This document shows positions 28,172 through 43,125 of a stretch of 58,883 bases of DNA, piece by piece. The DNA lies in contig NZ_KB908472.1 of the NCBI RefSeq assembly GCF_000381965.1, positions 1 to 58,883 on the forward strand. Direction: 5' to 3'. A program made the position numbers and the translations under genes. Source of the DNA: Oceanimonas smirnovii ATCC BAA-899. GTDB taxonomy: Bacteria; Pseudomonadota; Gammaproteobacteria; Enterobacterales; Aeromonadaceae. The notes below the pieces were generated by a model, which was not told where the DNA came from, made no database searches, and saw only the letters and a list, made by a program, of their open reading frames with translations. The first letter of the stretch is position 1. Each line of letters begins with the position of its first letter.

Positions 28172-30996
28172 CAGGCAAACCGGCGGACTTCGCCGTCTCC
28201 GGCCACGTTCGATACGCAACGGCCACAGATGCCGTCATGACCTTCATGGGTACCTACATCATCCACATGATGCCAGCAACGACCGCACTTGTCGGCTTCA
28301 CTCCTGGCCACACTCACTTTGAGGCCGGCCAGCTCGGTATCGGTCGCATCGGCTGCCTCGCCAAGTGCGGCAATAGTGACGTTTGAAGTCAGCATCACAA
28401 AGCGCAGCTCATCGCCCAGTTGCGCCAGCTTGGCGGCCAGGGATTCATCGGCATAGAGAGTGATATCGGCCTCCAGGGCTCCACCAATCACCTTGTTGCT
28501 GCGGGCACTTTCCAGCGCCTTGTTCACCGCCTGACGCACTTTGAGCAGCTCAGCCCAGTAGGCATCATTCATCTGTTCACCTTCTGCCAGACCAAACAGA
28601 CCGTCATAGAACTCTTCGGTAAACACAAAGCGCTCACGCTTGCCGGGCAGCAGGGCCCAGATCTCGTCGGCGGTAAAACTCATGACAGGTGCCATCCAGC
28701 GGACCAGGGCCTCCACAATGTGGTACAGGGCGGTCTGGCAGGAACGGCGCGCCTGGCTGTCAGCCTTGGCGGTATACTGGCGATCCTTGATTACGTCCAG
28801 ATAGAAAGAGCCCATCTCGATAGAGCAGAACTGCATCAGTTTTTGCGTCACCAGATGGAAGTTGTACTCGTCATAGGCCTGAGTGATCTCCTGCTGAATG
28901 GCCTGAGCACGTCCCACCGCCCAGCGGTCAATCACCACCATGTCTTCCGGTGCCACCATGTCGGTTTCCGGATTGAAGCCGTTCAGGTTGGCCAGCAGGA
29001 AGCGGGCAGTATTACGAATACGGCGGTAGGCATCGGCGCTGCGCTTGAGAATTTCATCGGATACCGTCATCTCACCGGAGTAATCGGTGCTGGCCACCCA
29101 CAGGCGCAGAATGTCGGCACCCAGCTTGTTCATTACTTCCTGGGGGCTGACCACGTTGCCGATGGACTTGGACATTTTGCGGCCCTGGCCGTCCACGGTA
29201 AAGCCGTGAGTCAAGACCTGACGGTAAGGCGCATGGCCCTTCATGGCAGTGGAGATCATCAGTGATGACATAAACCAGCCACGGTGCTGATCCGAGCCTT
29301 CCAGATACATGTCGGCAGGATGCCCCTGAAACTCGGAACGTACGTCCACAACGGAAGAGTGAGTAGAGCCGGAGTCGAACCATACATCCAGGGTGTCGAG
29401 CACCTTGTCGTACTGGTCGGCTTCCTCACCCAGCAGCTCGGCGGGGTCCAGATCCCACCAGGCCTGAATGCCGGCTTTCTCCACCCGCTTGGCTACTTCC
29501 TCCATCAGCTCAGTGGCGCGGGGATGCAGCTCCTGAGTGTCTTTATGCACAAACAGGGCAATGGGCACACCCCAGGTACGCTGACGGGAAATACACCAGT
29601 CAGGACGGTTTTCCACCATGGACTGAATACGGCTTTGGCCCCACTCGGGTACCCACTGCACTTTTTCAATTTCACTCAGTGCCTGACCGCGCAGACCGGC
29701 CTGATCCATACTGATAAACCACTGAGGAGTAGCGCGGAAAATAATGGGCGTCTTGTGCCGCCAGCAATGCGGATAGGAGTGCATATAAGCTTCATGGTGC
29801 AGCAGCGCGCCACGCTCCTTGAGCACCTCAACTACAGCGTCGTTGGCCTTGAAGACATGCTGGCCGGCAAACAGCTCAGTATCGGGCAGATAAACACCGT
29901 TGCCGCCCACCGGGTTAGCCACTTCCAGACCGTAGTGCTGACCTACCGCGAAGTCTTCCTGACCATGGCCAGGAGCCGTATGTACGGCACCGGTACCGGA
30001 GTCGGTGGTGACGTGGTCGCCCAAAATGGCAGGTACATCAAAGTCGTAGAAGGGATGCTGAAAACGCTTCAGCTCAAGCCCGGCACCCTGACAGTAACCC
30101 AGATTGTGATAGTGAGTGATGCCGGCTCTGTCCATCACGTCCTTGACCAGATCTGCCGCCAGAATCAGCCGCTCGGGCTGATCACCTTCCACCTGCACCA
30201 GGGCATAGCTCAGCTCGGCATGCAGCGCCACCGCCCGGTTGGCGGGCAGAGTCCAGGGCGTGGTGGTCCAGATCACCACAGAAACGGGACCATGACCGGC
30301 ATGTCCTTCGGCACAGTCAAAACTGGCAACCACAGCAGCCTCGTCAGCGGCCCTGAAGCGGACATCAATAGCTGGTGAACGCTTGTCTTCGTACTCGACT
30401 TCGGCCTCGGCCAGCGCCGAGCCACAGTCGGTACACCAGTGCACCGGCTTGGAGCCCTTGTGCAGATGACCTTTGTCGATAATTTTGCCGAGGGCTCGAA
30501 TGATGTTGGCCTCGGTATCAAAGTTCATGGTCAGGTAAGGATTGTCCCAGTCACCGAGTACCCCCAGACGGATAAAGTCAGCCTTCTGCCCTTCCACTTG
30601 TTCTTTGGCGTAGGCACGGCAGGCTTCGCGGAACTCGGCGGCAGACACTTTGACACCGGGCTTGCCGACCTTGCCTTCCACTTTCAGCTCAATGGGCAGG
30701 CCGTGGCAGTCCCAGCCGGGAATGTAGGGCGAGTCGTAACCCAGCAGGCCCTTGGACTTGACGATAATGTCTTTCAGGATCTTGTTGACCGAGTGACCAA
30801 TATGAATGTTGCCGTTGGCGTAGGGAGGGCCATCATGAAGAATAAAGGGCTTCTTGCCGGCCTTGGCACGACGCACGGCACCATAGAGATCTTCATCAAA
30901 CCAGCGCTGCAGCATCTCCGGCTCGCGTTTGGCCAGGTTGCCGCGCATGGGAAACTCTGTTTCGGGCAAATTCAGGGTGTGTTTATAGTCGCTCAT
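28171..30996 (-). CDS. ileS: Isoleucyl-tRNA synthetase
   Basis: A 941-residue class Ia synthetase (E. coli 938). It has HIGH motif [12 protein letters not shown] near residue 64, a CP1 editing domain (about 200-400), KMSKS motif [10 protein letters not shown] near 600, an anticodon-binding domain and a C-terminal zinc site [10 protein letters not shown]...CGRCV. It charges tRNA-Ile and edits valine. It starts 5 bp after ribF. Confidence 0.99.
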
Positions 30997-38569: not shown

Positions 38570-38700
38570 GGGGCTGACGAAGCAGAAGCGGGGATTGCCG
38601 GAGCCGACCATTAAATGCCATGGATGGCATTTTCGAGCGTTACATGGAGGTACTTGTAGCGTGTCGGCGCAGCGCAACCGCGCTGCTGCTTCGCTCTGCG
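38570..38700 (-). repeat. Dispersed repeat, copy 3 (module A, inverted)
   Basis: The same module A as at 1431 and 14913 but on the minus strand, so it has the same orientation as the ptsP gene whose stop is 5 bp away. The main palindrome is at 38613-38632 with a GG centre on the plus strand, flanked by GCCGAC/GTCGGC. It fills most of the 239-bp ptsP-lgt gap. No module B is seen. Confidence 0.85.
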
Positions 38701-40979: not shown

Positions 40980-41537
40980 TTATCTGTGTCGTCTGCGCCT
41001 GTCCCGCTGGCGTCCCTGTTCCGACCGGTAACGACCCTGATCATGGTGGTTACGGCTTTGCTCAGCCATGACAATAGGCGCAAATTCCCGCAGCACCCGC
41101 CGGTAAACTTCCCGTTTAAAAGACACCACCTGACGTACCGGATACCAATAGCTTACCCAGCGCCAGTCATCAAACTCAGGATGCCCGTGGCAACCAAACT
41201 CAATATGTGGTTCCTGTTCCGGGTCCAATCGCAGCAAAAACCATTTCTGCTTCTGCCCAATGCAGACAGGGTTACTGTCCCACCGAACCAGGCGTTTTGG
41301 CAGCTTGTACTTGAGCCAGTGACGCGTCACCGCCAACAGGGTAACGTGCTCGGGCTTAAGCCCTATCTCTTCGTACAGCTCCCGATACATGGCCTGTTCA
41401 GGGCTTTCACCGTCATCTACTCCCCCCTGGGGAAACTGCCAGGAATGCTGGCCATAGCGTCTGGCCCACAATACCTGGCCTTTGCGATTGCAGATCACTA
41501 TGCCTACATTGGGACGAAATCCGTCGCCATCTATCAC
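40980..41537 (-). CDS. rppH: RNA pyrophosphohydrolase RppH
   Basis: A 185-residue Nudix hydrolase. [18 protein letters not shown] leads to the Nudix box [23 protein letters not shown]. It removes pyrophosphate from mRNA 5' ends, starting RNase E decay. The GTG start at 41537 matches the E. coli N terminus. The tail (about 160-185) is rich in Arg, Gln and Asp and differs from E. coli. It is divergent from mutH across 613 bp that carry DnaA boxes. Confidence 0.97.
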
Positions 41538-41562
41538 GCAATCACCAGACTAAAAAGCTAAC

Positions 41563-41580
41563 ATGGAATGATTGTTCCAT
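41563..41580 (-). other. Short hairpin upstream of rppH
   Basis: ATGGAA-TGATTG-TTCCAT forms a 6-bp stem, 26 bp upstream of the rppH GTG. It may lie in the 5' leader or overlap the promoter. No function is assigned. Confidence 0.35.
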
Positions 41581-41658
41581 ATTCCCCCATTTCCGGCAAA
41601 TCGAGCCTGCATATTCATATAACGACATGACTTGAATAACTCTTGAATTTGTCAACAG

Positions 41659-42048
41659 TTATAAACAAAAAAACCTGACTTGCCGAATGGTTTCCCCCAG
41701 AACCTGTGAATAATACTGTGATAAAAACGGTATAGCCGAGTTTAATCAGATGAGCTGTAAGCGTTGCCTTTTGTGATCAACTTCATAAACAATAAAAAAA
41801 TAATATAAAAAACAATATCTTAACATCACTCATATGGATCAGGCTGGATCTTTGATCAGGCGATCCTGCAGGATCAATCATGTTGATAACTAACGCAGGT
41901 CAATAAATAACCACTTTGGGGTTATCCACAAAACTAGTGAATGATCCGCCGGATCATGCAGCGCTCTCATCACATTTTGTTGGCCTCAGCAGCAAAATGA
42001 CGTCCGGAAAGAAGCAGAATATCACTTATCCAGTTTTTCTGTGGATAA
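41659..42048. promoter_or_regulatory. DARS2-like DnaA-binding locus between rppH and mutH
   Basis: The 613-bp gap (41538-42150) has no credible gene. It holds two perfect DnaA boxes TTATCCACA, at 41922-41930 (plus) and 42040-42048 (minus), and a TTATCCAGT at 42026-42034 facing the second across 5 bp. Weaker boxes are TTATTCACA (41705-41713, minus), TTATCAACA (41881-41889, minus) and TTATAAACA (41659-41667, plus). An A/T-rich tract spans about 41784-41823. Nine GATC sites lie between 41775 and 42095, five within 41837-41875. In E. coli the rppH-mutH gap holds DARS2, which reactivates ADP-DnaA. The same role here is inferred from position plus boxes. Confidence 0.65.
41837..41875. repeat. GATC cluster with 14-bp palindrome
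   Basis: Five GATC sites occur in 39 bp. GATCAGGC occurs twice at a 17-bp interval (41837 and 41854), and GATCCTGCAGGATC (41862-41875) is a perfect palindrome. A further inverted repeat, ATGATCC-GCC-GGATCAT, lies at 41941-41957. Spaced GATC pairs are the substrate of Dam and SeqA, and GATC is also the target of the adjacent MutH. Confidence 0.75.
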
Positions 42049-42059
42049 GCTTGTGTAAC

Positions 42060-42092
42060 GGTATGTTCATACCTGAGTAAAACCCGTATAAG
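42060..42092 (+). promoter_or_regulatory. Probable mutH promoter with overlapping palindrome
   Basis: TATAAG (42087-42092) is a good -10 box; the -35 region 17 bases upstream (TGTTCA) is weak. The palindrome GGTATG-TT-CATACC (42060-42073) covers this -35 region and could be an operator. A GATC (42092-42095) touches the -10 box. The start would be near 42099. Confidence 0.45.
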
Positions 42093-42101
42093 ATCGGTCT
42101 G

Positions 42102-42121
42102 CTGCCTGTCACCACAGGCAG
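42102..42121 (+). other. Hairpin in the mutH 5' leader
   Basis: CTGCCTGT-CACC-ACAGGCAG is a perfect 8-bp stem with a 4-base loop, 15 bases upstream of the mutH AAGGTGA ribosome site. No T tract follows, so it is not a terminator. It would lie at the very 5' end of mutH mRNA and could protect it. Confidence 0.55.
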
Positions 42122-42150
42122 AAACAAGTACAAACCAAGGTGATTAATTT

Positions 42151-42828
42151 TTGAACAACCTTATCTTGCGCCCTGAAAGCGTCTCACAATTGCTGGAGCA
42201 TGCTCAGGAGCTGGCCGGTCTTCCGCTGGCTGCTCTGGCTCATAATCTGAACCAGCCGGTGCCGGACAACCTGCGCCGGGACAAAGGCTGGATTGGCCAG
42301 CTGCTGGAGTTAAGCCTGGGTGCCAGTGCCGGCTCCAAACCTGAACAGGACTTTCCCGAACTCGGAGTGGAGCTCAAAACCATACCGCTTGACGCGGCCG
42401 CCCGGCCTCTGGAAACCACCTTTGTGTGCGTTGCACCGTTGCTGAATATTGCTGGCCTCAGCTGGGAAACCAGCAATGTGCGCAACAAGCTGTCCAGGGT
42501 GTTATGGATTCCGGTGATCGGTGAACGAGATATGCCCCCCGGCGAACGGCTGATTGGCCAGCCACTGTTATGGACGCCGAATGAAGAAGAAGAATGGTTA
42601 TTGCGCCAGGACTGGGAAGAAATCATGGAGCTGATAAGCCTGGGCCGGGTGCAGGAAATTACCGCACGCCATGGCCAGGCCCTGCAGCTCAGGCCCAAGG
42701 CCGCCAACGGCCGTGCCCTTACCGATGCCATTGGCCCCGACGGCAATTACATTCAAACCCGCCCCCGGGGTTTTTATCTGAAAACCAGTTTCACCGCCGC
42801 TCTGCTGGCCCGGCATTTTATGCTGTGA
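42151..42828 (+). CDS. mutH: DNA mismatch repair endonuclease MutH
   Basis: A 225-residue Sau3AI-like nuclease. The catalytic triad is Asp67, Glu74 and Lys76 in [11 protein letters not shown]. It nicks the unmethylated strand at hemimethylated GATC when activated by MutS-MutL. It implies a Dam-methylated genome. Translation starts at TTG, seven bases after AAGGTGA. It is divergent from rppH, as in E. coli. Confidence 0.97.
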
Positions 42829-42844
42829 GCCGTGTAAGAAGCAG

Positions 42845-43125
42845 CAACAGGGTTACCTACACCGACACGCTTCAAGTACTTCCATGTAACGCTCGGCAAA
42901 TGTCATCCATGACATTTGACGGTCGGCTTCGGCAATCCCTGCTGCTGCTTCTGCTGACTCCGGCATTGCCTGTTGAAAGAGCATCCGGCTACGCGGTGGC
43001 GAGTCAGGAGGACAAAGGGTATCTGTTTCAGCGGCCCTTCGCGCCAGGAATGGCGCGACGGAGCCTACAGGGAGGTATTCACGGCGTGCCGCGGAAACAG
43101 TGCCCTTTGGCCGACGCGACTGCAC
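42845..43125 (+). repeat. Dispersed bipartite repeat, copy 4 (modules A and B, diverged)
   Basis: This copy lies between the convergent 3' ends of mutH and the MFS gene, a 309-bp gap with no gene. The module A palindrome at 42897-42918 has two paired substitutions relative to copies 1 and 2 that keep it fully complementary. The module B hairpin TCGCGCC/GGCGCGA (43039-43058) also differs from copy 1 by a paired change. The small TACATCCATGTA palindromes are degraded in both modules. CCGAC/GTCGG outer pairing is kept. Confidence 0.82.

Follow-up and report, generated by a model that had tools for sequence, protein, structure and literature searches.

A candidate DARS2 element with two DnaA-box triads between rppH and mutH in Oceanimonas smirnovii

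The 613-bp intergenic gap at 41538..42150, flanked by rppH and mutH in Oceanimonas smirnovii ATCC BAA-899, is well supported as an orthologue of DARS2 by where it lies, by its core geometry and box V, and by its conservation in relatives. Very probably, it serves this Oceanimonas-like genome as DARS2 and works by an E. coli-type mechanism; the reactivation of DnaA itself, comprising all of the binding events and the nucleotide exchange, we infer from E. coli. Positions refer to the window, the whole stretch of 58,883 nucleotides that was analysed.

The gap and its DnaA boxes

The candidate was delimited by gene order and NCBIfam names. The genes rppH (40980-41537, minus strand) and mutH (42151-42828, plus strand) were each named by an NCBIfam equivalog model above its cut-off. 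ptsP was also named by an NCBIfam model, and the order ptsP-rppH-gap-mutH is that of E. coli MG1655. Among the matches listed, the closest named relative by MutH was Oceanimonas sp. CHS3-5, at 88% identity. The A/T-rich tract described in the first-pass annotation is present: A+T content was 84% at 41780-41830, as compared with 61% in the whole gap and 45% in the window. Structured RNAs were sought in the whole window, with zero Rfam matches at gathering thresholds. A promoter and terminator scan of the gap found none; the simple sigma-70 scan yielded 0 promoters versus 2.1 expected in shuffles and is thus uninformative. A dispersed repeat of approximately 60 bp occurs at 42838-42900 and 38634-38692 of the window, with at least 39 more matches in the genome (40 of 90 candidates scored).

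The gap was scanned for triads of DnaA boxes at offsets 0 (+), 14 (-) and 26 (-), as in E. coli DARS1. Two were found: triad 1 at 41691-41725, with 3 mismatches in total, and triad 2 at 42026-42060, with 4. Triad 1 consists of box I, TTTCCCCCA (41691..41699, +, 2 mismatches), the counterpart of box I in the published E. coli core; box II, TTATTCACA (41705..41713, -, 0 mismatches); and box III, TTTATCACA (41717..41725, -, 1 mismatch). Triad 2 consists of box I', TTATCCAGT (42026..42034, +, 2 mismatches); box II', TTATCCACA (42040..42048, -, perfect); and box III', CGTTACACA (42052..42060, -, 2 mismatches). The core arrangement, in which box I opposes boxes II and III at the spacing of DARS1 and DARS2, was therefore found twice in the gap, each time with 2 mismatches in box I. 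In the window, the facing pairs of the two triads tie in mismatches, and the total over all three boxes is lower for triad 1 (3 versus 4). The equivalent of box V, identified by alignment and spacing, is the perfect box TTATCCACA at 41922..41930 (+). Triad 2 ends 90 bp before the start of mutH. Finally, a DnaA-box-like TTATAAACA at 41659..41667 (+) lies 32 bp before triad 1, likewise in E. coli, within a conserved block at 41653-41670.

The box arrangement in the gap is not due to chance. None of 2000 dinucleotide shuffles of the gap contained two triads of ≤4 mismatches, and any triad of ≤6 mismatches occurred in 10 of the 2000 (one with a best of 4, nine with 6). Moreover, exact matches to TTATNCACA number four in the window, at 29543, 41705, 41922 and 42040, and three of the four lie inside the gap, which makes up approximately 1% of the window. 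The first-pass annotation had listed perfect boxes at 41922 (+) and 42040 (-), both of which we identify as perfect TTATCCACA boxes, as well as weaker boxes that were recovered in the box list. Its near-perfect box facing the 42040 box, TTATCCAGT at 42026-42034, is likewise present, with exactly 5 bp between the two. As a mark of DARS2, this facing pair is real but belongs to triad 2, and is not the orthologue of the published core. The counterpart of that core, 41691(+)/41705(-)/41717(-), had gone unnamed.

Conservation of the triads and box V in relatives

The genomes searched numbered 61, including that of the window, and mutH was found in 59. The gap sample took one locus per genome from these 59, plus E. 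coli and the best 80 named loci. After dropping those without rppH in the stretch fetched (3 of 59 and 5 of 80), 132 gaps with rppH upstream were retained; as the two locus sets overlap, these correspond to 122 distinct sequences. The Oceanimonas group represents the window's genus by kinship, with named members Oceanimonas, Zobellella and Oceanisphaera. The Aeromonas group takes in one Aeromonadaceae bin (L035). Named loci were grouped by title, except that L129, titled Chryseobacterium, was placed in Enterobacterales. Two triads counted as a pair when 290-370 bp apart, and a box counted as box V when 85-130 bp before triad 2, such that the spread of these distances is bounded by choice.

The triad pair was present in 98 of the 122 distinct gaps, a sample that includes the best 80 named loci, and in 95 of them together with box V; reversed controls gave 0 of 122. 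By group, the pair occurred in 23/23 gaps of the Oceanimonas group, 24/24 of the Aeromonas group, 36/40 of Enterobacterales sensu stricto (s.s.), 3/3 of Motilimonas, 3/3 of Shewanella, 0/5 of one sister genus and 9/24 of the others. The 24 gaps lacking the pair include all five of the sister genus. The class of others holds three gaps from further genera of the window's own family, one without the pair (L041) and two with it (L054 and L067), as well as the sole Aliivibrio gap (L132), which has one triad only, and one Glaciecola and one Bowmanella gap without any. Conservation beyond enteric bacteria, put forward in the first-pass annotation, is already in print: the legend to Fig. 8 of PMC8682772 covers DARS2 of Shewanella denitrificans and V. 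cholerae.

In the alignment of 112 gaps, from which 10 of the 122 were omitted by length, the highest 9-base mean conservation fell in the block 42021-42055, which holds triad 2. Mean column conservation was 0.95 for box V, 0.81 for triad 2, 0.74 for triad 1 and 0.54 for the gap overall. Box V was TTATCCACA in every row of the Oceanimonas group (23/23), the Aeromonas group (24/24) and Enterobacterales s.s. (40/40), and the same was true of box II' in the identical rows (23/23, 24/24 and 40/40). Other conserved blocks on the rppH side of triad 1 were 41566-41587, 41631-41645 and 41653-41670 (112 gaps).

The two triads differ in quality between groups. For Enterobacterales s.s., the Oceanimonas group and the Aeromonas group, respectively, mean mismatches were 1.00, 2.35 and 2.96 in box I of triad 1, and 2.75, 1.61 and 2.04 in box I' of triad 2. 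Values for box III' were taken from ungapped scans owing to an alignment gap at that box. When boxes I and II were considered together, triad 2 was the better in 23/24 gaps of the Aeromonas group and 13/23 of the Oceanimonas group (9 ties, 1 opposite), and triad 1 was the better in 24/36 gaps of Enterobacterales s.s. (3 ties, 9 opposite).

Among the 95 gaps with box V, the standard deviation of the distance from box V to triad 2, approximately 105 bp, was 2.8 bp, as compared with 10.9 bp from triad 1 to box V, 7.0 bp from rppH to triad 1 and 36.9 bp from triad 2 to mutH; these statistics are descriptive because related sequences are not independent. The same values bear on other explanations of the boxes. 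We consider it improbable that they are operators for transcriptional control of mutH and/or rppH by DnaA instead of sites of nucleotide exchange. DnaA does bind upstream of several E. coli genes, according to PMC11317965, and the 90 bp from triad 2 to mutH in the window would suit such a role, but across the gaps it is the distance to box V, and not that to mutH, that is held nearly constant. That box V and box II' are perfect in every row of these three large groups could also be explained by passive titration, with high-affinity boxes merely holding DnaA. Titration has no need, however, for a fixed head-to-head 0/14/26 spacing that is repeated twice and kept across families, and is very unlikely to account for the locus. 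DARS2 remains the preferred reading of the gap.

The position of the gap on the chromosome was expressed as the mutH-oriC (mnmG) distance divided by the length of the chromosome or, for 4 of 17 genomes that are multi-contig, of the main contig. Eight Aeromonadaceae that have the element gave shares of 0.133-0.181, and E. coli gave 0.206. The share was 0.056 and 0.068 in two sister-genus genomes without the element and 0.106 in a genome of the same family with one triad only (G023); six genomes from other families, whether or not they have the pair, ranged over 0.116-0.259. These shares indicate a position that is broadly mid-arm and not tightly fixed outside the family.

We made further observations on triads elsewhere in these genomes. 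The window's own genome has a DARS1-like triad upstream of uvrB (L071, 1489-1523), as does E. coli. In the sister genus, the rppH-mutH gap is 188-192 bp long and without triads (L042, L045, L048, L049 and L050), a triad lies by uvrB in 4/5 genomes (L164-L167), and one lies at another place in 3/5 (L163, L168 and L169).

Candidate IHF and Fis sites and the GATC cluster

An IHF-like site with 1 mismatch is located at 41810..41822 (-), 112 bp before box V. Using a consensus scan that is itself insensitive, an IHF match (≤1 mismatch) at this distance was found in 16/23 gaps of the Oceanimonas group; the same insensitive scan gave 1/24 at -113 and one at -103 in the Aeromonas group. A Fis-consensus match at 41898..41912 lies beside box V within a conserved block at 41896-41913. 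A perfect Fis match at the corresponding position, -24, was present in 4/23 gaps of the Oceanimonas group and 2/24 of the Aeromonas group, again by an insensitive consensus scan, and one at +15 in 20/24 of the Aeromonas group. The insensitivity of the scans is apparent in 36 Enterobacterales gaps, in which no Fis position recurs and the best IHF positions occur in 5 to 7. The genome encodes a Fis protein with 71% identity to E. coli Fis. Genes for SeqA, Dam and IHF alpha are also present, each above its cut-off.

The many GATC sites of the first-pass annotation were borne out. The gap contains nine, versus a mean of 2.3 in dinucleotide shuffles, with 0 of 5000 shuffles reaching 9. Five of the nine form an oriC-like cluster within 39 bp, at 41837..41875, as established by pattern scan and shuffles; 0 of 5000 shuffles reached this density. 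The genome was scanned for runs of three GATC in which adjacent sites are separated by 2-10 bp, giving 47 forward matches and 16 with the reversed control pattern. Chains of five GATC occurred only in the rppH-mutH gap cluster and at C14:73382-73416, which is oriC (L078), located between mioC-like and mnmG genes named from their translations.

As an addition to the DARS2 reading, we tentatively suggest that the cluster may be a target of SeqA, such that DnaA reactivation would be blocked temporarily after passage of the fork. This would be consistent with the presence of seqA and dam, with a density equalled in the pattern scan only by oriC, and with a preference for GATC in relatives. Specifically, GATC was the commonest of 24 tetramers of the same composition in the 23 same-genus gaps (163 occurrences, the next having 95), and GATC pairs ≤31 bp apart occurred in 7/7 gaps of the Oceanimonas clade, 16/16 of the Zobellella/Oceanisphaera clade and 24/24 of the Aeromonas group. 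Several results argue against it. At least four GATC per 40 bp were found in only 5/23 same-genus gaps, all close relatives, and columns 41833-41876 are poorly conserved, at 0.41 versus 0.54 for the gap. Nor is the excess special to the window's family, as it is seen, more weakly, in Enterobacterales s.s. (3.65 versus 2.16 in shuffles, with a pair ≤31 bp apart in 25/40); the two sites in the E. coli K-12 gap are unpaired. MutH too acts at GATC, so selection for GATC could have another cause. Finally, a published figure already marks GATC sites in DARS2 of E. coli, according to its legend in PMC10380432.

Correspondence with E. coli DARS2 and other known systems

A triad scan of the E. coli rppH-mutH gap found two triads, both 0/14/26. 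When the primers given in PMC4585315 were mapped, the published deletion of the E. coli core corresponded exactly to L001:2636-2670, triad 1. As the published core is E. coli triad 1, its counterpart in the window is 41691-41725. E. coli triad 2 is at L001:2952-2986. Two E. coli IHF sites with 1 mismatch each were found at 2729-2741 and 2745-2757, with 3 bp between them, in agreement with the 3-bp separation of IBS1-2 in PMC4245941. Table 1 of PMC11317965 lists E. coli DnaA ChIP-seq peaks at DARS2 at 2969124, 2969306 and 2969501; placed on NC_000913.3, these lie near both E. coli triads and between them, and the double boxes that the paper names for the DARS2 peaks fall in both triads. We take NC_000913.3 to be the version that applies, the footnote's.2 notwithstanding, because each named double box is then ≤200 bp from its peak, in line with the table.

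By the E. coli-type mechanism, ADP-DnaA would bind boxes arranged head to head in a 0/14/26 triad. IHF would bend the DNA between triad 1 and box V, with Fis beside box V, and so bring the parts together. ADP would be released, and the resulting apo-DnaA would then reload with ATP. Spreading of ATP-DnaA from box V would finally displace Fis and shut the site. According to PMC4585315, which cites the founding 2009 DARS paper, boxes I and II are crucial for ADP release. The DARS2 reading is weakened by the degeneracy of box I of triad 1 in the window's family, by the weak conservation of the IHF and Fis consensus sites, and by the gaps that lack the triad pair.

With less confidence, we propose that triad 2, on the mutH side, functions in the element and is not a product of decay, given the nearly fixed spacing from box V. 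It is a rather doubtful further step that DARS2 has twin cores, triad 2 providing a second core for nucleotide exchange, and that its main activity has shifted there in Aeromonadaceae. This would be consistent with the better facing pair being mostly in triad 2 in the Aeromonas and Oceanimonas groups and mostly in triad 1 in Enterobacterales s.s.; its reach is limited by the tie between pairs in the window, where triad 1 has the lower total. In E. coli, according to PMC4245941, plasmid-borne DARS2 could do without its right half and without boxes IV-VI, and full-length DARS2 from which the core was missing showed no activity on a plasmid, which counts against triad 2 sufficing in that species.

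The second triad is the most interesting part of the finding. The analysis highlights a conserved half of DARS2 that an E. coli plasmid test found dispensable, and the near-fixed distance from box V to triad 2 across families provides a direct lead to the role of that half. A search of openly licensed papers found none with both DARS2 and Aeromonas, and the available text of that literature yielded no description of a second DARS2 core; the element is thus extended to a family for which no report was found there. The sister genus, with no element in the gap, offers a natural comparison for the way replication timing is maintained without it.

Of the known systems, oriC resembles the gap in its dense GATC cluster and DnaA boxes, but the genome's own oriC lies elsewhere (L078). 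E. coli DARS1 has a triad geometry identical to that of the window's triads, but a single triad appears among the boxes listed for the bioD-uvrB gap. PMC5742627 gives the DARS1 regulatory region as ~50 bp, describes boxes I-III as equally spaced in DARS1 and DARS2 with box I opposing II and III, and states the conserved spacing for species proximal to E. coli. E. coli DARS2 shares with the window the rppH-mutH position, two 0/14/26 triads, box V and an IHF-like site at a matching place: the E. coli IBS-like sites precede box V by 118 and 102 bp, and the IHF-like site of the window precedes it by 112 bp. Published Fis sites of DARS2 overlap box V, whereas the window's match adjoins it without overlap. 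The window and E. coli differ in the mismatches of box I in triad 1 (2 and 1, respectively) and of box I' in triad 2 (2 and 3), and in the GATC count (nine and two). The proposal of a different box layout was rejected, as the same triads, box V and spacing occur in E. coli and relatives. Indeed, box V to triad 2 is 104 bp in the window and 105 bp in E. coli, and the layout is that of E. coli DARS2 except that triad 1 and box V are 20 bp farther from each other (231 versus 211 bp).
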